Assembly: GCA_903892515.1 (NCBI GenBank)
Contig: CAITIS010000088.1
Location: 1-64,000 of the forward strand
Direction of reading: 5' to 3'
Origin: an uncultured Planctomycetota bacterium
GTDB taxonomy: Bacteria > Planctomycetota > Phycisphaerae > SM23-33
DNA: 64,000 nt
A program made the translations under genes and the position numbers. Positions 15,092 to 25,387 of this stretch are shown in pieces; the first letter of the stretch is position 1, and every line of letters begins with the position of its first letter. The notes below the pieces were generated by a model. That model searched no databases. It saw nothing but the letters and a program-made list of their open reading frames with translations, and had not been told where the DNA came from.

Positions 15092-16243
15092 TTACCCCTG
15101 CATCGCGGTGATGTCCACGAGTTGGCCGGGGACCAAGTTCATGCCATGAGGCACGGCGATCAGGATGGGCCGGCCCCATTCCGGGCGGGTGGGGTCGAGC
15201 CGCTGGTGGGCCGGTATTTCCTGGACCGCAGGCCCAAGTTGCAGGACCGTCGCGGGAACGGGCTGGCCGGCGGGCGGGCGAGTCTGCAGGAGCATCGTCG
15301 CGCCGACCTTGGGCTGAGTAGGCTGCCGGTCGCGAATATACGCCACGATGGTCGGCGTGCAATCGGCCGTGATGGAGAGAATCTCATCGCCGGCCTGGAC
15401 GACCTGGCCGGGACGGTGCAGGATCGCACATATCTTTCCCGACGCCGGCGCCTTTATCGCACCGCAGGCGATTTGCAGTTCCAGTTCGTGCGCCCGCGCT
15501 TCGGCAGCCGACCGGGCCTTGCGGATCGGATCCAGGAATGCCTCCAACTCCGACGGCTGGGTCGAGGGAAAATCACTCTGGCGCGTCTCGGCCGATTTCA
15601 GGTCGAGCTGGGCCTGGGCCATTTCTCGCTTGGCGCCTTCAATGATCTGGTTGCTTTGGTCGCAGCGCAGCTGGAGATCCTCGACCTCAAACGTGGTGGC
15701 CGCACCGGCCTGGCGGAGCTTTTCCGTGCTATGCAGGAACATCTCGGCCCGCGCCAGCCGGACCTGCTCAGATTCGATCTGGGTTTGCAGCGAGAGGATC
15801 TTCAGCCGGTACGTTTCCAAGTCCACGCCCAGCCGTCGCCACTCGGTGAGCCAGTTGTACTCGCGATCGGTTTCTTCCTGGCGGATCTTGGCGGCGACGG
15901 ATTCGAGTTCTTTCTCCTGCCGCGATACCTCTTCCCGCAGCGCCGTCAAGCCGGCCAGACGCGGCTCGTCATCGAGCTGGGCGATGCACTGGCCCTGCTG
16001 GACCTGGTCGAAAAGCTGCGGCGAACCGCTGCTCAAGGCCGTGAGGATGCCTGCACACGGCGCTCGCACGGGTATGCTGGTGACCTGCACCTCGCCGACG
16101 AGTTGAGGCAGCTGCGGATTGTGTTGCCATAGCCAACCAGTACCCAGCACGGCCCCAACGAGAATTATCGCCGGCAGCAACTGGTGTCGAATCTGTCGAA
16201 GATGAACTCGTAAAGGCGTTCGAATGCGCTTCGGTTGAGTCAT
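15092..16243 (-). CDS. HlyD-family periplasmic adaptor (membrane fusion) protein
   Basis: One membrane helix (about residues 22-40) is followed by a lipoyl-like half (SIPVRAPCAGILTAL), two long coiled-coil helices (about 100-255), the second lipoyl half (CGAIKAPASGKICAILHRPGQVV) and a beta-barrel end. This is the standard order of HlyD/EmrA adaptors, which link an inner-membrane transporter to the outer membrane. No transporter or outer-membrane factor is encoded beside it, so it appears orphaned here. A CCGGAG site precedes the ATG. The length (383 aa) is normal for the family. Confidence 0.85.
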   Translation of the reverse strand: MTQPKRIRTPLRVHLRQIRHQLLPAIILVGAVLGTGWLWQHNPQLPQLVGEVQVTSIPVRAPCAGILTALSSGSPQLFDQVQQGQCIAQLDDEPRLAGLTALREEVSRQEKELESVAAKIRQEETDREYNWLTEWRRLGVDLETYRLKILSLQTQIESEQVRLARAEMFLHSTEKLRQAGAATTFEVEDLQLRCDQSNQIIEGAKREMAQAQLDLKSAETRQSDFPSTQPSELEAFLDPIRKARSAAEARAHELELQIACGAIKAPASGKICAILHRPGQVVQAGDEILSITADCTPTIVAYIRDRQPTQPKVGATMLLQTRPPAGQPVPATVLQLGPAVQEIPAHQRLDPTRPEWGRPILIAVPHGMNLVPGQLVDITAMQG

Positions 16244-16712
16244 AAATACTCCGGATCCTGCAAACCCGACTCCTCTTTACGCATGCACAGATGATAAGGA
16301 TCAGAAACGCCGGACAAGCTGTCGTGTCCGCTGCCTTGGCTGACAAATTGCGGGCGAATACTGTGACGCCGCCGCAGCAGCGGCCAAGCTCGTCCGCGCG
16401 TCGCAAAACAGCAGCACTGCCGCGGTATCCGCGGCTTTGTGAACAGCCGTTTGCTGGCAACGACCGCCAGCAATACTCACAATTATACTGGGCTTTGTCG
16501 GTTTTTTAAGCGAATTCCCGGCCGCCCATGCACTTGTGGAGTCCCTGAACGGCTGCATGAATTGCTTCTAAGCAGAAGGGCATTGCAGGATTCAGTTTTT
16601 ACATTCGGCATCTTCTCGCGGAAGGTCGTCGGGTAATATGCTGAGATTGCTGGCTGCGGCGGACGCCCGGTCCTTTGGCCAGCGTACTCAAGACCGGGCA
16701 GGAGCAGATGAT
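16244..16712. other. Intergenic region, no gene seen
   Basis: About 470 bases between the divergent HlyD-like and DUF3616 genes. It holds an eight-base inverted repeat TTGCTGGC/GCCAGCAA at 16451-16473, followed by an AT-richer stretch with TATACT at 16484-16489 but no matching -35 box. I see no supported coding frame. Confidence 0.4.
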
Positions 16713-17978
16713 ATGAACGCCCTCGTGATAGCCTGGGCCTTGGTGGCGCTGGGAAGCGGAGTCAGCCCGGCCAGCGCCACGAGCCAGCCTGCCAGCATGC
16801 CAGCTCCGGAAGCGGCCAGCGGCATCCTTTTCACGGGCATGAGCGACGCCTCGGACGGCGTGGCTTTGGACGAACACCGATTCCTGGCCGTCGATGATGA
16901 GACAAATGAGTTGCGCATCTACGACGTGGGCGGCGGAGCCCCGCTGAGCACGGTCGATCTGTCCAGCTTTCTGCAGCTTTCGCCCAGGCATCCCGAGGGC
17001 GATTTTGAGGGCGTCACCCGCGTCGGCGACCGCCTGTACATCACCGGTTCACACGGGCGCAACCAGGACGGCAAGCCCCGGCCGAACCGGTGCTGCCTTT
17101 TCGCGGCCACACTCTCGGTCAGCCCGACGAACGCGGACGTCCGCGGGGCGGGCAGGCCATTCCGTGGTTTGCTGGAGGCGATGCTGACCGCGCCGTCTTT
17201 GCAGGAATTGAAGCCGACCCTGGAGCCGTCCATCCGTTTGGCCCATGGCCAGGACGAGACCGAACTGGCGCCCAAGATGAAGGGCCTGAATATTGAGGGC
17301 TTGTGCGCCGCCCCGGACGGCAAGACCCTGTATCTGGGCTTGCGCAACCCGCCCTGGGGGCCGGAGGGGGGCCAGCGCGCGCGGGCGATCGTCCTACCCA
17401 TGCTGAACCCTGAAGAGACCCTCCTGCAAGGCCGGGGCCCGCAATTCGGCACGCCATTGCTGTGGGATCTGGAGGGCCTGGGGATCCGCAGCATGGAATA
17501 CTCGCCATTCCACAAGAGCTATTTCATCATCGCCGGGCCGCACGACGATGGGCACAGATTCCGCCTCTTCCGCTGGACGGGCGAGCCGACCGCGCAGCCC
17601 ACACTGGTCAGCCGCCTGGAGGACCGCCCGCTGCGCACCCACCCCGAAGGGGTCATTCCGTTCGAGCACTCTTCCCGGTTGCTGCTGATCTGCGACGACG
17701 GAACCCGTCCGGTCCACGTGGACAGTCCTGCCGAGTGCGCCGAAGGCGAGAGCCCATCGCCGGATGGCACGTGCCCCAACAAGCACTTGCGCGACATTTC
17801 GAAACGCTCTTTCCGCGGTTTTTGGCTCGACCCGGGCCAGCCTGAGCCCGCCTCGCGCCCGCGACAAGAGCCGCCGCGTGGAGTGCCGTTTGGGGCCAAC
17901 TGGCCGGATGGCGCCTCATCCCAGAACTTGCACACCGTAGTTGACGGTATCGCCTTTGACGCGTTCGTTGACCATTGA
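16713..17978 (+). CDS. Secreted DUF3616 beta-propeller-like protein
   Basis: The first 22 residues form a signal peptide ending in ASA. The body follows the DUF3616 pattern: SDASDGVALDEHRFLAVDDETN early on, then HPEGDFEGV, then ITGSHGRNQDGK, then LNIEGLCAAPDGKTLYLGLRNP, which is the spacing of repeated blades with an acidic Asp/Glu-Gly motif. Members are secreted and mostly uncharacterised; some are thought to be phosphodiesterase-like. AGGAG lies eight bases before the ATG; an open extension upstream lacks a ribosome site. It is a single gene, and the candidate promoter of the next gene set overlaps its last codons. Confidence 0.8.
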   Translation: MNALVIAWALVALGSGVSPASATSQPASMPAPEAASGILFTGMSDASDGVALDEHRFLAVDDETNELRIYDVGGGAPLSTVDLSSFLQLSPRHPEGDFEGVTRVGDRLYITGSHGRNQDGKPRPNRCCLFAATLSVSPTNADVRGAGRPFRGLLEAMLTAPSLQELKPTLEPSIRLAHGQDETELAPKMKGLNIEGLCAAPDGKTLYLGLRNPPWGPEGGQRARAIVLPMLNPEETLLQGRGPQFGTPLLWDLEGLGIRSMEYSPFHKSYFIIAGPHDDGHRFRLFRWTGEPTAQPTLVSRLEDRPLRTHPEGVIPFEHSSRLLLICDDGTRPVHVDSPAECAEGESPSPDGTCPNKHLRDISKRSFRGFWLDPGQPEPASRPRQEPPRGVPFGANWPDGASSQNLHTVVDGIAFDAFVDH

Positions 17979-17996
17979 TGGTTTCTCTGTTAGAAT
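17968..17996 (+). promoter_or_regulatory. Candidate sigma-70-type promoter of the TS/radical SAM gene set
   Basis: TTGACC and TAGAAT are separated by exactly 17 bases, close to the TTGACA-17-TATAAT consensus. The -35 box overlaps the end of the DUF3616 gene. Transcription would start near 18003, giving a leader of about 175 bases before the first gene. Confidence 0.55.
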
Positions 17997-18176: not shown

Positions 18177-18818
18177 ATGGTTGAGTTTCAGGCCGTCGAT
18201 CTTGGCGGGGCGTGGGTGCGAGTGCTGCGCGCCGTCTGCCGCACCGGCGAGGATGTCGGCGGCGAAGCTCGTGAATTGCGTAATGTCTGCCTGGCCTTTC
18301 AGGAACCCCTCTGCAAAGACGGCCCCCTGGCCACTTGGTCGCAACGGCAACCGGTGGAGGAGATGCGAAAGGTTTTCTTCACCGACCAGCCGAACACGTT
18401 CGGCCACAGTTATTCCCACAAGATTCGCGGCCCCCGGGGCCTGTCCGACCTCAGCGACGTGACGGAATTATTAGCGGCCGATCCGCTGTCCAAGCGGGCC
18501 GCAGTCGTGCTGGTGGGTAATGGCGACGGGAGGGTGCCGTGCATAAACACGGTGCATTTCCTGCGCCGCCAGGCCGGCATTTCGGTCAGCTACTTCGCCC
18601 GCGGACAAGATATCTTCCGCAAGTTCTACGCCGATTCCGTCTGCCTGCACGAGATGGGTCGCCGGGTGGCAAGCCCGCTGGGGCTGGAAGTTTGCCAGGT
18701 GGCCGGGATGATAAGCTCGGCCCACGTGTACTTGGCCGACTTGGCGGAAGCCGAGGCGATGCTGGCTGAAGTTGAGCGTTGTGGCGACGCCGGCGTGCTG
18801 GATCGGAGTGGCGCGTGA
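18177..18818 (+). CDS. Thymidylate-synthase-fold protein, probable cytidylate hydroxymethylase
   Basis: From residue 121 the sequence aligns without gaps to E. coli thymidylate synthase from Pro145 to Tyr209 by eye: Cys122 is the nucleophile (Cys146), Arg142 the phosphate ligand (Arg166), Asp145 equals Asp169, and His183/Tyr185 equal His207/Tyr209. The position of Asn177, which selects uracil, is Asp153. That same change is known in dCMP hydroxymethylase (phage T4 gp42) and in CMP hydroxymethylases of nucleoside-antibiotic pathways, and it favours cytosine. At 213 aa the protein is shorter than TS; the C-terminal part is reduced. Its stop overlaps the GTG of the radical SAM gene. Fold and residues are seen; substrate is inferred. 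Confidence 0.78.
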   Translation: MVEFQAVDLGGAWVRVLRAVCRTGEDVGGEARELRNVCLAFQEPLCKDGPLATWSQRQPVEEMRKVFFTDQPNTFGHSYSHKIRGPRGLSDLSDVTELLAADPLSKRAAVVLVGNGDGRVPCINTVHFLRRQAGISVSYFARGQDIFRKFYADSVCLHEMGRRVASPLGLEVCQVAGMISSAHVYLADLAEAEAMLAEVERCGDAGVLDRSGA

Positions 18819-20203
18819 AGTTCTTTCTAATAGTATCACGCTGTCTGAACCCCAAGCAGACCTACCGGGAGTATCCCCTGGGGGCCGGCATGATCGCCAC
18901 GTCGATGCGCCGGCTGGGCCACGAGGTGGTGCTGCACGATCAAACGGCCGAAGGAACCGACGACGACCAGGTCGTGGACCTCGTGCGCGACTCCGCTTGC
19001 GATGTAGCCGGCTTCTCGGTGATTACGCCAAGCTATCCCGTGGCACAGCGGCAGATCCGGCGGTTAAGAATCCGGTTGCCTGAGCTGCCGATCGTCGTGG
19101 GGGGGATACACGCCAACCTCTTTCCGCAAGACTTGCTGGGCGACGGCGCAGATGCAGTCGTGCTGGGCCAGGGCCAAGAGGCGATGGGGCTGCTGATGGA
19201 TCGGCTGGGGAATCGGCGGACCTGGAGCGACGTGCCGGGGCTGGTTTTCCGGGACGATCACGGAGGGGTGGTGCAGACGCCCCCGCGTGCGCCGGATGCG
19301 CCAGTGAATCACGCCCAGGACCACGACCCCGACGTGGTTGACCGGGACGTGTACAACCTTTCCCGGTATACGCACCATTCGATGCTCGCGTCGCTGGGCT
19401 GCCCGTTTCGCTGCATGTTCTGCTGCAATTTCTCCAGCGTGCTGCTGCAAGGCGGCCTGCGCGTCCGCGCGGTTGACCGGGTGATCCAGGAGATACAACA
19501 CCTGCATGAGCGGTACGGCGCCAGCGAGGTGTTCTTCGCCGACGACGTCTTCCTGCTGACCCGCCAGAGCATCCTGGCCTTTTGTCAAAGGCTGCGAAAC
19601 CTGGAACTGCCGCTGCAATGGGTGGCGCAGATGCGCGTGGATGTCATGGATGCCGAAGTGGCCGAGGCGATGGTTTCAGCCGGGTGCCACCGGGTGTACT
19701 TCGGCGTGGAGTCCGGCTCTGATGCGATACTCCAGCGCGCGGGCAAGGGCTTGGATCGCCAGGCGATTCGGCGCGGCATCGCCGCTGCCAAGGCCGCCGG
19801 CATGCGCGTCAAGACGGGTTGGATTGTTGGCCTGCCAGGGAGCATCGCCGAGCAGTACGAAACGGTTTCATTCATTCGCGAGCTGCGGCCCCACGAGGTG
19901 TCGATCCATCAGCTGATTCCCTTCCCCGGCACCGAGTACTACCGGAATCCAGCCGCACACGGCGTACGGATTCGCGACCCGAAGGACTTCGCGAGCTTCT
20001 GCTTCGGCGGGCTGAGCGACAACATCTCCTTCGATTATCTCCCGGCAGGCGACCTGCTGGAATTGTTGAGGTACACCCAGGAGTCGCTGGAGTCGGAAGG
20101 ATATGTGAGCAGCGACCGGGCCAAGGGCACGGAACAGTACCTGTATTCGACGCCGCAAAACGCGGTGTCCATGAAGGTGTTTGGCGGCAACGGGCAGCGT
20201 TAA
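18815..20203 (+). CDS. B12-binding-fold radical SAM protein
   Basis: The N-terminal 140 residues have the Rossmann-like pattern of cobalamin-binding domains, but the DXHXXG motif is not obvious (HDQTAEG near residue 41). The radical SAM cysteines are Cys196, Cys200 and Cys203 in CPFRCMFC, followed by a GVESGSD-type strand and the usual barrel. Such enzymes perform radical methylations, ring changes or sulfur insertion on nucleotides, lipids or natural products. The GTG start overlaps the TS-like stop (GTGA) and has GGAG six bases upstream. Coupled translation with a nucleotide-modifying gene suggests a shared pathway. Length is 462 aa. Confidence 0.88.
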   Translation: MKFFLIVSRCLNPKQTYREYPLGAGMIATSMRRLGHEVVLHDQTAEGTDDDQVVDLVRDSACDVAGFSVITPSYPVAQRQIRRLRIRLPELPIVVGGIHANLFPQDLLGDGADAVVLGQGQEAMGLLMDRLGNRRTWSDVPGLVFRDDHGGVVQTPPRAPDAPVNHAQDHDPDVVDRDVYNLSRYTHHSMLASLGCPFRCMFCCNFSSVLLQGGLRVRAVDRVIQEIQHLHERYGASEVFFADDVFLLTRQSILAFCQRLRNLELPLQWVAQMRVDVMDAEVAEAMVSAGCHRVYFGVESGSDAILQRAGKGLDRQAIRRGIAAAKAAGMRVKTGWIVGLPGSIAEQYETVSFIRELRPHEVSIHQLIPFPGTEYYRNPAAHGVRIRDPKDFASFCFGGLSDNISFDYLPAGDLLELLRYTQESLESEGYVSSDRAKGTEQYLYSTPQNAVSMKVFGGNGQR

Positions 20204-20297
20204 ACGATCCGCATGCGAATGGTTTTGCGACAATACGGCGCTTAGTCCGCCGTTGTTATAAGAAGGGATTCTTGTGACCCAGCAGGAGACAGTGCGA

Positions 20298-21977
20298 ATG
20301 TGGAAAGTGCCGGAGATCATGGCGACCATCGGGCCGACGCTGGAGAAGCCCGAAGACCTTTGCCGCGCCATCGAGGCCGGCGCTCGCTGGTTCCGCCTGC
20401 CGTGCGGGTATCGGCAGCGTCCGCACTTAGAGAACGCCCGAGCGATTCGCGCCGCCGCTGAGCAGACGGGCCAGCCCGTCCAGTTGCTGATGGACCTGCC
20501 GTCGTCGCGGCCCCGCACGGGGAAGATGGCCGAACTCCGGCTGGATATCGGCGACCGGGTCGTGTTTTGGGATCCGGAATCCGATCCGACGCCACCTGCG
20601 GAGGCGAAACCATCGCCGGTGCCGCTGCCGGGGCTATCGAGCCTGCTGGAGAAGCTGGGGCAGGGGCAACGGATGTGGTTCTGCGACGGCCGGCTGGAGT
20701 TCCGGGTGGACGAACTGTCCGGCCGGCACGTGCTGGCGCACCTCGATCGCGGGAGCGTCACGCTGAAGTCGTCCAATGCGATCTGCCTTCCCGACAGTTC
20801 CAGTCCGTACGTGATCGTCACCGCCGAGGACCGTGCCCTGCTGAACTCGTTTGCCCGGGCCGGGCTGATCCCAGACTGGATCGCTCTGTCGCTGATCTGC
20901 TCGCCCCAGGACATGTCCGACGGCCGGCGGGAAGTGCGTGAACAGCTCGGCGCGGATGTCCGAATGATGGCCAAGATCGAGACGGCCGAGGCGTTGCAAG
21001 AGACCGAAGCGATCATCGCCCAGAGCGATGGCGTCATGGTCGCACGCGGCGATCTGGGGCCGGCCGTTGAGTTCGTCAGGCTGCCGGAGGCACAGGAGCA
21101 GATTGTGGCGGCGGCCCGGCGGTTGGGCAAGGTGTCGGTGGTGGCCACGCAGGTGCTGGAGACCTTCGCCGAGACGGGGATTCCGCAGCGTGCAGAGCTG
21201 TCGGACCTGTCGCTGGCTGCGCGGCAGCGTCCTGACGCGGTGATGCTGGGCAAGGAAACCGTGTACAGCCCCCGGCCGATCGAATCCATTCGACTGGCGC
21301 GGGACGTGCTGAGCTACGAAACCTGTCGGTTGGAAGTCGCCGCGGTGCGGCTGCCGCCGGCGCTGTCGGCGGCCATTGGGACGCCGCGCGTGGTGGGCAT
21401 CGAAGGGCCCAACGGCTCGGGCAAGTCGCTGCTGTGCCAGAAACTGAGCCAGCGCCTACGGGCCACGAGCCTGCGCGGCGTGCCACTGGAGTGGGAAGCG
21501 CCCGAAATGAAGCTGCGGATGATCCGCGACGCAGATTGGCTGGCGTCGGCCATGTACTTTCTGTCGGGCGTGATGGAGTCATCGCGCCAACTGCGCAAAG
21601 ATGGTGGCAAGCTGGCCATCATGGATCGTTCGGTGTGGTCCACGCTGGCGGTGCAGTATGCTCACGATCCCCAACGACTGGCCCCGCTGATGAGCCTGCT
21701 GTCTGTGGCCGGAGATCGAATCAAGGCGCCGGACCTGACCATAGTGCTGGAGGCCAGCCCTGCCACTTGCCGCGGACGGATAGCTGGTAAGCCAGCGCTG
21801 GAGCAACAGTACGATTCGGCCGAACCTGCCGCCGAAGATTTCCAGAGCCGCCAACGCGATTTCTACCGCTGGCTGGCCCAGCAGTGGCCCGGGGTGGTCT
21901 TCCTTGATACCGAAGGCTGCGACGGCCAGGCCGTGTGCGACAAGGCCGAGAGCCTGATCCGAGGTTGGATGCAGTAA
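20298..21977 (+). CDS. Pyruvate-kinase-like domain fused to a thymidylate-kinase-like domain
   Basis: Residues 1-345 follow pyruvate kinase: ATIGPTLEKPEDL at the start, MMAKIETAEAL with Lys226, VMVARGDLG (247-254), VVATQVLETF and PQRAELSD. The early RxNxSHG substrate motif is replaced by RLPCGYR, and the C-terminal allosteric domain is absent. Residues 359-559 form a P-loop kinase: GIEGPNGSGKS (367-377) and MDRSVWSTLAVQY, as in dTMP kinases. I know of no standard enzyme with this fusion. A plausible role is phosphorylation of a modified nucleotide, with the barrel serving a phosphoenolpyruvate- or sugar-phosphate-linked step. The ATG has AGGAG nine bases upstream; a GTG eight codons earlier is possible. 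The stop overlaps the next ATG. Confidence 0.82.
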   Translation: MWKVPEIMATIGPTLEKPEDLCRAIEAGARWFRLPCGYRQRPHLENARAIRAAAEQTGQPVQLLMDLPSSRPRTGKMAELRLDIGDRVVFWDPESDPTPPAEAKPSPVPLPGLSSLLEKLGQGQRMWFCDGRLEFRVDELSGRHVLAHLDRGSVTLKSSNAICLPDSSSPYVIVTAEDRALLNSFARAGLIPDWIALSLICSPQDMSDGRREVREQLGADVRMMAKIETAEALQETEAIIAQSDGVMVARGDLGPAVEFVRLPEAQEQIVAAARRLGKVSVVATQVLETFAETGIPQRAELSDLSLAARQRPDAVMLGKETVYSPRPIESIRLARDVLSYETCRLEVAAVRLPPALSAAIGTPRVVGIEGPNGSGKSLLCQKLSQRLRATSLRGVPLEWEAPEMKLRMIRDADWLASAMYFLSGVMESSRQLRKDGGKLAIMDRSVWSTLAVQYAHDPQRLAPLMSLLSVAGDRIKAPDLTIVLEASPATCRGRIAGKPALEQQYDSAEPAAEDFQSRQRDFYRWLAQQWPGVVFLDTEGCDGQAVCDKAESLIRGWMQ

Positions 21978-23188
21978 TGCTGATGCTGTTGACGGGCAAC
22001 CTGAAGAAGTACTCTTCGTTTGAAGGGCTGCTGAAGCAGCTGGAGATCCGGCTGGAGAAGCCGGCGTTTCAGCTGCTGGAGCTTCAGGCTACCGATTTCC
22101 TTACCGTGCTGGAGCACAAGGCGGCTCGGGCGGCCGCGGAGTTCGGCTCCCCATGCCTGGTCGATGACAGCGGGCTGGTGCTGGACGCGTATCCTGGTTT
22201 TCCCGGCCCGATGACGGCTGATGTCTGCCGCATGCTCGGGGCCGAGGGCTTGCGCCGGCTGCTGGAGGGCACAAGCCCGCACGGACGCATGGTCTGTCAC
22301 ATTGGCTGCATGATTGAGGGGAAGTTGTGGCATTGGCAGGGCGAGATCCCCGGAACACTGGACCCGCGTCGCCCGGTCAGCCCTGATGGTCCCGGCCCGC
22401 TGTCCAGTTGGTTCCTGCCGGATGATGCCGGCGCTTCGGGCGTGCTCGGGCATCGGCACAGAGCGCTGGAGGCGCTGGCGAAGGACATCGCCGTGCTTCG
22501 CGCGGCCCTGGCGGGCAAGCAGGCCGGAGCCAGTTGCGATGGTCCTCCGTGCGTCTTCTGCCAGGAATTCAACGGCAGTGGCAACTCCGTCTTCGACGAG
22601 CTGTCGGAGGGTGAGATTCCCTCGCGGATTATCCATCAAACGCCCCATTTCACGGTGTTTCCGCCGCTGGGGCAGTTCATCGAGGGCGGGCTGCTGCTGG
22701 CCACCCGCGAACACATCTTCTCCATGTCCGAGCTGAACGAGCAGCAGTACGACGATCTGGAACGATTGATGGCCGAGACCGCCGACTTGCTGGAGAAACG
22801 GTACGGCTGCTGTCCGCTGTTCTTTGAGCATGCGCCACTGACCGCCGAGGAAAAGGGCACGTGCTGCGTGAATCACGCGCATCTGAACGTGTTTCCGGCC
22901 AACGTGGACGTGCACGAGCAGCTGCGGAAGTTCCCGCATGAGCAGATCGGCCAGATGCGTGAGATGGCCGACATGCCGGGACGGCACCGCGGATATCTGT
23001 TTCTACAAGATAATCAGCGGCGGCGATTCGTGTATCATGTGGGTATCGTGCCGTCGCAGTACGTGCGCCGGATAGTAACGGCGCAACTGGGAATGCCCGA
23101 GCGGTGGCACTGGCGGCAATACCTGGGGATCGACGAGCTGAAGCGGACGATGCAAGCCCTGCAAGGCTGGAGGTCTTCGGATGCCTGA
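21977..23188 (+). CDS. ITPase (HAM1)-like domain fused to a HIT domain
   Basis: The first 170 residues carry HAM1 signatures: LLTGNLKKYSSF with TGN at 6-8, LEHKAARAA, and LVDDSGLVLDAYPGFPGP (DDSG at 63-66). Such enzymes hydrolyse non-canonical nucleoside triphosphates to monophosphates. Residues 190-400 are a HIT hydrolase/transferase domain starting at CVFC (192-195), with the active-site triad written HAHLN (300-304): the nucleophilic middle His is kept, and the third His is Asn. The fusion suggests coupled handling of a nucleotide made by this gene set. The start ATG overlaps the previous stop by one base; the end overlaps the methyltransferase start by eight bases. Confidence 0.85.
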   Translation: MLMLLTGNLKKYSSFEGLLKQLEIRLEKPAFQLLELQATDFLTVLEHKAARAAAEFGSPCLVDDSGLVLDAYPGFPGPMTADVCRMLGAEGLRRLLEGTSPHGRMVCHIGCMIEGKLWHWQGEIPGTLDPRRPVSPDGPGPLSSWFLPDDAGASGVLGHRHRALEALAKDIAVLRAALAGKQAGASCDGPPCVFCQEFNGSGNSVFDELSEGEIPSRIIHQTPHFTVFPPLGQFIEGGLLLATREHIFSMSELNEQQYDDLERLMAETADLLEKRYGCCPLFFEHAPLTAEEKGTCCVNHAHLNVFPANVDVHEQLRKFPHEQIGQMREMADMPGRHRGYLFLQDNQRRRFVYHVGIVPSQYVRRIVTAQLGMPERWHWRQYLGIDELKRTMQALQGWRSSDA

Positions 23189-23870
23189 CACCTCGCGAAA
23201 GGTCTACGGCCTGGCGCCTAGCGCGACCGATGATTACCAGTCCTTGCGACTGGATGTCATCCGCCGGCGTTGGGACACCAAGGCCCAGCGGTGGGACACG
23301 GACCTGGCCGACGAGAGCTGTCACCTGAACGAGGATGGAGCGTACGCGCGGTTCCTGGAAACGGCCCGGGGCATCGTGGATCAGCGGGCGGACTTTTGCT
23401 GCCGCCACCTGCTGGTGGACGTAGGTTGCGGCACCGGTCTGGTGCTGGCGAGCCTGCTGGGATATTTTGCAGAGGGACTGGGCTTGGATATCAGCGCGCG
23501 GATGCTGGCGGTGGCCAGGCAGCGTGGGCTCCCGCGGGCACGTTTTGCGGAAGGCAACTGCTTTGAGCTCGGCCAGTGCGTCCAGCAGGCCGGGGCGATC
23601 GTTTCGCGCGGAATCCTGCTGTCGCACTACGGAACGCGCTGGGCCGGCGTGCTGCTGGGGCAGGTTCATGCGGTTGTGGGAGAGGGCGGGTTTGCCCTGC
23701 TGGACTTCCTGAACGCATCCTGCCGCGAACAGTTTGCCGAGCGCCCTGAGAATAAGACATACTTCACAGCCGAGGAGATGGCGGCACTGACCATGGAGGC
23801 GGGCTTTGCCCACTTCCATATTCTGGGTGAGCCCTGGCATCGTGTGCGCATGCTGTTGTTGGAGCGATGA
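23181..23870 (+). CDS. Class I SAM-dependent methyltransferase
   Basis: Residues 78-90 (LVDVGCGTGLVLA) are motif I of Rossmann-fold methyltransferases, and GLGLDISARMLAVARQ is motif II with the acidic residue that holds the ribose. The remainder fits the Methyltransf_11/25 pattern. It is 229 aa with no membrane segment. GGAGG lies seven bases before the ATG, and the gene overlaps the ITPase-HIT gene. The substrate is not visible; position suggests a small molecule or nucleotide made by the preceding enzymes. Confidence 0.85.
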   Translation: MPDTSRKVYGLAPSATDDYQSLRLDVIRRRWDTKAQRWDTDLADESCHLNEDGAYARFLETARGIVDQRADFCCRHLLVDVGCGTGLVLASLLGYFAEGLGLDISARMLAVARQRGLPRARFAEGNCFELGQCVQQAGAIVSRGILLSHYGTRWAGVLLGQVHAVVGEGGFALLDFLNASCREQFAERPENKTYFTAEEMAALTMEAGFAHFHILGEPWHRVRMLLLER

Positions 23871-23873
23871 GAC

Positions 23874-24686
23874 ATGGGCCACAGCGCGCGATATGAACTG
23901 AAGTACGTGATCGAAGAAGCCCGGGCTGTGGCCGTGGCCGACTTCGTGAGCAGCTACATGCGGCCGTCGGACTTCAACGGCGATGGCCCGGTCCGCGGGC
24001 ACCCGGTTGTCAGCCTGTACATGGACTCGCCGGACTGTTTTTTCTACCACCAGGCGTACACGGGGCATAAGAACCGGATGAAGCTGCGTATCCGGTTCTA
24101 CGATGACGACTGGTCGCGCCCGGCCTTTCTGGAGATCAAGCGGCGGGCCAGCGACGTGATCTGCAAGGATCGGGCGATGATCACGCGCGAAGGCGTGCGG
24201 CAGATTCTGTCGGAGGGTTGGCCGGCGCAACCCTTCTGGCCGCAGGACGCATGGCTGATCCACGGCAAAAAGCGGCAGGACGTCAGCGATGACTTCTGGC
24301 GTTTCGCCAACCTCAAGCGGGCTCGCGGAATGATCTATGTTTCCTACATCCGCGAGATATGGGAAGCGCCGGATGACGATGAATTGCGCGTGACTTTCGA
24401 CAGGTACGTTCGCGGCAGCACGTACGACGGCAGCGGGCGGCTGAGCCTGCCACGGTACGGCTGGCGGCCATACATGCCGCCGTACATGGCGCCATTTCGC
24501 GACGACAACGTCGTGCTGGAACTGAAATTCGACGACAAGGCCCCGAAGTGGATGTTCGATTTGGTGAGGATCTTCAATTTGCAGCGGATACCGGTGTGCA
24601 AGTATACCGCGTGCATATACGCCGCCGGGCTGCAGTGGGGCAAGCCGGTACGCAGGGAAAACGAAGAGGAGTTGATGCTGATATGA
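23874..24686 (+). CDS. VTC-domain protein (polyphosphate polymerase-like)
   Basis: The tunnel-fold motifs of VTC proteins are present: RYELKYVI near the start, VSLYMDSPD, MKLRIRFYDDD, FLEIKRR, then VVLELKF near the end. In yeast Vtc4 these strands line the active tunnel that transfers phosphate from ATP to polyphosphate; basic and acidic residues on them are kept here. At 270 aa it is the bare domain. It follows the methyltransferase by three bases, and its stop overlaps the start of a DUF4956 membrane gene, a pairing often seen in bacteria. Polyphosphate synthesis is a family-based guess; other nucleotide-using reactions are possible. Confidence 0.9.
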   Translation: MGHSARYELKYVIEEARAVAVADFVSSYMRPSDFNGDGPVRGHPVVSLYMDSPDCFFYHQAYTGHKNRMKLRIRFYDDDWSRPAFLEIKRRASDVICKDRAMITREGVRQILSEGWPAQPFWPQDAWLIHGKKRQDVSDDFWRFANLKRARGMIYVSYIREIWEAPDDDELRVTFDRYVRGSTYDGSGRLSLPRYGWRPYMPPYMAPFRDDNVVLELKFDDKAPKWMFDLVRIFNLQRIPVCKYTACIYAAGLQWGKPVRRENEEELMLI

Positions 24687-25387
24687 ATACCTGGCAAGCT
24701 TGGCAGGACATTTTGCTTAACGGCAACGCTGGCGTGACGTCGGTAGGCGCGGGCAATGTAGTGCTTATGATGCTGCTGTCGTTCGTGCTGGGAATGGTGA
24801 TCGCCTACGTGTACATGTGGACGCACGAGGGAATTTCGTATTCCCGCACGTTTGCCGCCTCGCTGGTGGCGCTGCCGCTGCTGGTGGCCATGATGATGAT
24901 GCTGATGGTCGGCAGCTTCGTGATGGCCTTGGGGCTGTTCGCGGTCTTCGGCGTCATCCGCTTCCGAAATGTGCTGAAGGACACCCGTGACACGCTCTTT
25001 ATCCTGTGGGCCATCTTGGAAGGCCTGGCGGTGGGCAACTGGCACTATTCCACCGCGGTGCTGGCGCTACTGGGGGCCTCGGCGGTGTTCGTGTTCATTC
25101 GCATGGCCTCCTTCGGCACGCGGAATCGGTACGACGCGGTGCTGACGGTGCGGATAACCGGCGATACGGCCGTCAGCGGTGCGGCGCTGCGGAAGTTGCT
25201 GGTCCGGCACGCCGCAAGGCGGACCTTGGCCAGCGAACGACGGACCGCCGGCCAGGGGCTGGATGTGACCTACCGCCTGCTGCTGCGCGACCCGCTGCGC
25301 AGCGAGGAACTTCGCGCGGAGCTTGCAGGCGTGGAAGGTTTCCAGAACGTTTCGTTGTACATGCACGATGATGAAGCGGAGATCTGA
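24683..25387 (+). CDS. DUF4956 membrane protein
   Basis: Hydrophobic helices lie at about residues 22-45, 54-90 and 112-140, followed by a cytoplasmic alpha/beta domain of some 95 residues. The sequence between helices, FGVIRFRNVLKDTRDT, is the conserved core of DUF4956. These proteins are found beside VTC-domain proteins and are thought to be their membrane partners. The start overlaps the VTC stop (ATGA), and a GAGGAG lies 11 bases upstream. It appears to be the last gene of the 18-25 kb train. Function is not known for any member. Confidence 0.85.
   Translation: MNTWQAWQDILLNGNAGVTSVGAGNVVLMMLLSFVLGMVIAYVYMWTHEGISYSRTFAASLVALPLLVAMMMMLMVGSFVMALGLFAVFGVIRFRNVLKDTRDTLFILWAILEGLAVGNWHYSTAVLALLGASAVFVFIRMASFGTRNRYDAVLTVRITGDTAVSGAALRKLLVRHAARRTLASERRTAGQGLDVTYRLLLRDPLRSEELRAELAGVEGFQNVSLYMHDDEAEI

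Follow-up and report, generated by a model that had tools for sequence, protein, structure and literature searches.

The stretch analysed here (the window, 64,000 nucleotides) is part of contig CAITIS010000088.1 (C88; 74,605 bases) of an uncultured Planctomycetota bacterium of the class Phycisphaerae, the draft genome of which comprises 4.89 Mb in 159 contigs, with an estimated completeness of 91% and a contamination of 0.6%. Seven tightly packed plus-strand genes, with overlaps or short gaps between them, occupy positions 18177-25387. All seven were confirmed as open reading frames, and their Pfam and NCBIfam assignments agree with the families named in the initial annotation of this DNA. In order, these are a thymidylate synthase (TS) fold, a B12-binding domain with a radical S-adenosylmethionine (SAM) domain, a pyruvate kinase (PK) barrel with a thymidylate kinase (TMK), a Ham1 domain with a HIT/DcpS-like domain, a class I methyltransferase, a VTC protein and a DUF4956 protein. 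The first five genes are referred to below as the core (Table 1).

Table 1. Genes and other features of the cluster and its 5' flank in the window
Feature	Position	Strand	Remarks
HlyD-like membrane-fusion protein (possible accessory)	15092..16243	-	homologues near VTC-DUF4956 or the core elsewhere
DUF3616 protein (possible accessory), directly 5' of the cluster	16638..17978	+	homologue of 33% identity immediately precedes TS in L077
Sigma-70-like promoter match, TTGACC-17-TAGAAT, with TG	17968..17996	+	10/12 match; 181 bases 5' of the TS start
Core gene 1: short TS-fold protein, 213 amino acids, predicted MilA-type cytidylate C5-modifying enzyme	18177..18818	+	carries the invariant residues of the family
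Core gene 2: B12-binding-domain radical SAM protein	18815..20203	+	CxxxCxxC intact; DxHxxG changed to DQxxEG
Core gene 3: PK barrel (residues ~10-350) fused to a TMK-like domain (~371-567)	20274..21977	+
Core gene 4: HAM1 (ITPase-like) domain fused to a CwfJ/HIT-like domain	21977..23188	+	HAHLN motif
Core gene 5: class I SAM-dependent methyltransferase	23181..23870	+
Accessory: VTC-domain protein (triphosphate tunnel, polyphosphate-polymerase-like)	23874..24686	+
Accessory: DUF4956 membrane protein	24683..25387	+

Overlaps of 4, 1, 8 and 4 bases join the TS to the radical SAM gene, the PK-TMK to the HAM1-HIT gene, the latter to the methyltransferase gene, and the VTC to the DUF4956 gene, respectively, while 3 bases separate the methyltransferase and VTC genes. 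The gap after the radical SAM gene, initially given as 94 bases, has that length if the fusion kinase starts at the in-frame ATG at 20298, but measures 70 bases with the GTG at 20274, a start supplied with a GAAGGGA-like Shine-Dalgarno sequence. The "one good promoter" of the same annotation does exist as a site in front of the cluster; however, shuffled versions of the region contained on average 1.5 sites as good, and the case for the promoter is weak for that reason.

Recurrence and distribution of the core genes

An alignment of the HAM1-HIT protein was scanned against 84,980 species, with partial sampling of genomes, and eight full-length relatives (41-47% identity) were recovered. Their carriers were, among the proteobacteria, Aromatoleum evansii, a Rhodocyclaceae genome or metagenome-assembled genome (MAG), a betaproteobacterial MAG and Azospirillum isscasi, and, among the Verrucomicrobiota, two Pedosphaera MAGs, one Verrucomicrobiales and one Limisphaerales MAG. 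Several of the carriers are thus MAGs, while Aromatoleum and Azospirillum are named strains. Seven of the eight carriers have the genes in the order TS, radical SAM, (PK-)TMK, HAM1-HIT and methyltransferase; the Azospirillum set is spread over two contigs, the second of which holds the TS gene, the radical SAM gene and the first part of the PK. A TS profile search in one verrucomicrobial order yielded a ninth further carrier (G1258), again with the whole set. Since all eight carriers found through HAM1-HIT also possess the TS gene, and the one found through TS possesses the other genes, the association is recovered from either gene. The five-gene order is common to ten genomes from three phyla, including the window (Azospirillum on its two contigs), and such an arrangement in nine other genomes is far beyond chance. 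Co-occurrence elsewhere was one of the two checks on which the initial annotation had staked its proposal, and it has come out in favour of the core.

The gene block is rare, comprises five to eight genes and occurs in distant phyla with a patchy spread. It was carried by 5 of 320 genomes in one verrucomicrobial order, and by 1 of 349, 1 of 200 and 1 of 82 in those groups of proteobacteria that gave full-strength matches. In 34 other genomes of the family of the window bacterium and in 391 further genomes of its phylum, no cluster-type TS match was detected; the 34 gave one weak TS match (8e-5), to a frame of 303 amino acids. The TS protein as a single query returned no relatives in viral contigs or genome contigs, because only exact words of eight residues were sought.

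The modular arrangement varied among the carriers. The PK is fused to the TMK in the betaproteobacteria, in Azospirillum and in the window, while in four of the five Verrucomicrobiota the TMK is separate and the methyltransferase gene is followed by a stand-alone PK, VTC and DUF4956. The fifth (L026, with its extension L080) has only the five core genes. HAM1 and HIT are fused in nine carriers and encoded by two genes in Azospirillum. In the phylogenetic trees, the betaproteobacterial and verrucomicrobial sets were separated for every core gene, and the branches of the window and Azospirillum were long and their placement poor. The window's PK domain, on the other hand, grouped with the PKs of the Verrucomicrobiota (95/99), and the VTC is likewise verrucomicrobial-like (70-72% identity), which suggests a more recent exchange of these two than of the other genes.

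The TS-fold enzyme and related cytidylate enzymes

The TS-fold protein matched PF00303 at an E value of 5e-4, below the cut-off, and TIGR03283 at 1e-13. In a profile search of the PDB, the best match was MilA (5.7e-14, versus 4.6e-10 for the next molecule), and an AlphaFold model (pLDDT 76), a prediction that the initial annotation had proposed, also gave MilA as its top fold match (1.1e-10). Also in the fold list are the phage dCMP (deoxycytidine monophosphate) hydroxylase AfhB and a TS-fold monooxygenase that depends on riboflavin, in complex with dCMP and flavin adenine dinucleotide (9iqu, 9iqc).

In terms of active-site residues, C146, R166, D169, H207, Y209 and Y94 of E. coli ThyA are conserved in all ten family members, including the catalytic Cys, the phosphate-binding Arg and the His/Tyr ribose residues, while R126, S167 and N177 are replaced by Lys, Gly and Asp, again in 10/10. 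The corresponding invariant residues of the window protein are Lys106, Gly143 and Asp153, together with Cys122, Arg142, His183 and Tyr185. The equivalents in MilA are Lys133, Ala176 and Asp186, of which the first two make the enzyme prefer cytidine monophosphate (CMP) to dCMP, and the third is common to cytosine-using enzymes (PMC5175136). In contrast, E. coli ThyA has Asn at the cytosine-type position and the T4 dCMP enzyme carries Arg/Ser at the two positions that contact the sugar; the TS-fold family shows neither. A cytidylate substrate, as initially proposed, is therefore supported by these specificity residues and by the match to MilA; the Lys/Gly pair makes the ribonucleotide CMP likelier than dCMP. 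Two of the carriers (G650 and G655) encode a separate canonical ThyA, 66-67% identical to that of E. coli, and the TS-fold protein is hence not their thymidylate synthase. The other TS-like gene of the window genome, on contig C71, is different and ThyA-like, with Asn/Ser/Arg.

MilA and BcmA, the CMP 5-hydroxymethylases of mildiomycin and bacimethrin biosynthesis, thus share with the window protein the TS fold, the Cys, Arg, His, Tyr and Lys residues, the cytosine-type Asp and a small residue at the ribose position. They differ in that the window protein is shorter by ~110 residues than the MilA chains of known structure, has the smaller Gly instead of Ala and shows ~20% structure-based identity, and in that its family lacks a recognisable Glu58 region and a nearby MilB-like glycosidase. 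Among published clusters of the bacimethrin type, that of Microcystis combines a TS with a thymidylate kinase, an ABC transporter and ThiD2, and that of Streptomyces albus a TS with a nucleoside-phosphate kinase, a radical SAM protein and an ABC transporter (PMC12345177). A TS beside a nucleotide kinase is common to both and to the window, as is the radical SAM protein in S. albus. The PK and the HAM1-HIT fusion are, however, not listed for either, and the ABC transporter and, in Microcystis, ThiD2 set them apart. The MilA-like first enzyme, the methyltransferase and these precedents would suit a secreted nucleoside of the classical kind, an antivitamin or antibiotic like bacimethrin or mildiomycin. 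Such a product is nevertheless distinctly unlikely, as the extra PK and HAM1-HIT suggest that the nucleotide is retained, and homologues of the MilB-like N-glycosidase (one Streptomyces protein as query) and of the hydroxymethylpyrimidine kinase, both sought with queries from a Streptomyces MilA-like cluster, were not found in the window or in the fetched stretches of the carriers.

Two genomes of the Rhodocyclaceae group (L078:7800-10605 in G1439 and L079:5548-8311 in G1394) encode a TS-like protein of greater length, with 37% identity to a MilA-like protein from Streptomyces, beside an unassigned protein of ~267 amino acids and one of ~310. The latter protein in L078 belongs to the alpha-glutamyl/putrescinyl-thymine pyrophosphorylases, a family of DNA hypermodification, here in a bacterial genome.

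Putative phosphate-handling enzymes and the radical SAM protein

In pyruvate kinases, R32, R73, K220, E222, D246 and T278 serve phosphoryl transfer, and N34, S36, H37 and T67 belong to the K+/ADP loop. The former residues are kept in the nine PK domains wherever the respective stretch is present, whereas the loop is altered in 9/9 (N34 to P, S36 to G, H37 to Y and T67 to L). This pattern suggests that phosphoryl transfer has been preserved while the acceptor and K+ site has changed, the domain apparently having been retuned. The TMK domain has a complete P-loop and the DR[SC] motif. The HAM1 domain retains NxxK, the acidic metal residues and HR, and has lost the purine-pocket motif of RdgB (GFGYDPIF); in the HIT domain, HAHLN replaces HxHxH. 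Fold matches of the HAM1-HIT protein included ITPases, KomB and CwfJ/HIT proteins. This pair of fusion proteins may plausibly handle the phosphates of a modified nucleotide, as had been suggested at the outset.

The neighbourhoods of HIT-family genes in general were considered as a guide to function and discarded as too varied to be informative, the sets in Rhizobium and Parabacteroides being different. On a Parabacteroides plasmid (L008:3343-8629), a ThyX-containing protein of 539 amino acids, an AAA ATPase, a related HIT protein, a MazG/PRA-PH-like protein and a DHFR occur together. On the Rhizobium plasmid pRL1 (L010:587-10329), a related HIT protein lies in a long operon, the genes of which were judged by eye to encode TMK-like, phosphoribosyltransferase, PfkB, cysteine-desulfurase-like, TrpD-like, methyltransferase and PhyH-like proteins.

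The radical SAM protein has an intact cluster motif and a B12-binding domain, and its PDB profile matches include, remotely (E 7e-4), OxsB of oxetanocin A biosynthesis, which prefers a triphosphate that OxsA subsequently strips (PMC13331322). A radical SAM protein with a B12 domain, acting on a phosphorylated nucleotide and followed by a phosphohydrolase, would thus be common to both systems; in oxetanocin, however, the base is adenine rather than cytosine and the phosphohydrolase is of the HD rather than the HAM1 type. The thmABC genes of 4'-thiothymidine biosynthesis in Photorhabdus (PMC12691670) likewise combine a radical SAM protein, a nucleoside kinase and a nucleoside triphosphatase, the last of which confers self-resistance, but they form a three-gene core without TS, PK, HIT or methyltransferase, and the product is a thymidine analogue.

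A candidate pathway and its accessory genes

We propose, with a probability of roughly one half, that the five core genes and the PK domain constitute one horizontally spread pathway for a modified cytidine nucleotide. The gene set and order, the families, the specificity residues, the patchy spread and the position of one copy among conjugation genes are established by comparison; the individual reactions, the order of steps two to four and the purpose are what we infer from them. In the first step, the MilA-like enzyme would modify CMP at C5, most likely to 5-hydroxymethyl-CMP. The TMK and the PK-like domain, with phosphoenolpyruvate (PEP) as donor, would then raise the modified nucleotide to the di- and triphosphate, which the B12-domain radical SAM protein and the methyltransferase may remodel. 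Finally, for protection or export, HAM1 would return the modified triphosphate to a monophosphate by pyrophosphohydrolysis, and the HIT domain would hydrolyse or transfer a nucleotidyl bond. The scheme follows the logic of phosphorylation, radical step and stripping known from OxsB/OxsA, by analogy and not by homology. The first step would be of a known kind and the remaining ones would differ; no published description of the present gene set was found in the literature searched. As the product, a nucleotide or nucleoside that acts as an antimetabolite is the most likely.

Several observations weigh against this proposal. The best NCBIfam match of the TS-fold protein, TIGR03283, represents archaeal thymidylate synthases. 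The Glu58/Trp80 region of thymidylate synthase (the catalytic Glu, E68 in MilA, and folate binding) in the N-terminal half could not be aligned to the family, and given this and the flavin-dependent dCMP hydroxylases among the fold matches, the evidence for a modification of CMP at C5 is better than that for the identity of the group attached there. The same two features, together with the shortness of the family, would fit an enzyme that hydroxylates rather than hydroxymethylates, or one that supplies a modified deoxynucleoside triphosphate to DNA. Lys/Gly at the sugar-selecting positions favour ribonucleotides, however, and the core contains no recognisable gene for DNA modification or for a polymerase, which leaves that alternative very improbable. 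In the radical SAM protein the cobalamin motif is altered (Table 1), so that its use of B12 is uncertain. TMK, PK and HAM1 together could amount to a futile cycle unless their substrates differ. Lastly, L026 has no PK gene within ~12 kb past the methyltransferase gene, and the PK may therefore not be essential.

The modified triphosphate could alternatively serve as an immune nucleotide, which would poison phage polymerases or signal infection in the manner of viperin or Kongming, with HAM1 as detoxifier or sensor. Kinases reaching the triphosphate would suit a polymerase substrate, and the HAM1 domain resembles KomB, the dITP sensor of Kongming. The L028 copy lies between the conjugative-transfer genes TraI_2 and TraU, and a sigma-54-type activator, 79-87% identical in the three betaproteobacteria, adjoins the core there. 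In PADLOC, moreover, the TMK domain matched the candidate-defence model PDC-M51B (E 9e-12) and the radical SAM protein, weakly, PDC-M51A (1e-5). These matches are, however, weaker than those to generic families of radical SAM proteins. With Kongming, the cluster has only the HAM1 fold in common: no viperin or Kongming match was obtained in PADLOC for the seven window proteins, nor any KomA or KomC match among these and three betaproteobacterial flank proteins. No effector was recognised, and the verrucomicrobial and planctomycete versions have membrane genes in place of defence genes. On balance, an immune role appears unlikely. A further reading, in which a hitherto undescribed mobile pathway would yield a cytidine triphosphate altered both at C5 and by radical chemistry, to act as a chain terminator against viruses or microbes, with its own PEP-driven kinase and a HAM1-HIT disposal or sensor protein, is tentative and rather doubtful.

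Should the proposed cytidine pathway hold, MilA-type chemistry would extend from antibiotic clusters to the Verrucomicrobiota, the lineage of the window bacterium and conjugative elements. A conserved, mobile pathway with a PK-like domain apparently retuned in the K+/ADP loop would be a target in the search for a new modified cytidine and could uncover a novel antimetabolite or an immune nucleotide of a new kind. The VTC/DUF4956 membrane module would also gain a testable biosynthetic context.

This module adjoins the core, with VTC next to DUF4956, in the window and in four Verrucomicrobiota, and is missing beside it in the three betaproteobacteria and one verrucomicrobial MAG. Conversely, three genomes from the same family as the window bacterium (L018, L019 and L020) contain a conserved three-gene VTC-DUF4956-HlyD module without core or nucleotide genes. 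The VTC of the window is, however, 70-72% identical to the core-linked VTCs of the four Verrucomicrobiota and 35-38% to those of its own family, and the idea that the module is unrelated to the core was dropped, since in these four it follows the core and PK. By sequence comparison, VTC/DUF4956(-HlyD) is best described as an accessory membrane and phosphate module that also exists on its own and was probably recruited in the Verrucomicrobiota and the window bacterium. The envelope-linked product that had been considered possible is consequently unsupported, the module being outside the universal core, absent beside it in four carriers and present without it in three genomes.

Other flanking genes recur in part. 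HlyD-like genes adjoin the sets in L024, L025 and L027, and a DUF3616 gene lies 5' of TS in L077; the window has both. In the betaproteobacteria (L022:313-4915, L023:1539-6288 and L028:1632-6285), a protein of 306 amino acids and the divergent sigma-54 activator are encoded upstream of the core. The activator has 960 amino acids, with an unrecognised N-terminal half, and the 306-residue protein is weakly amidohydrolase-like, with amidohydrolase-deaminase-like motifs and no Pfam match. Between the two, a Gly-rich protein of 174 amino acids is encoded in two of the three (L023 and L028).

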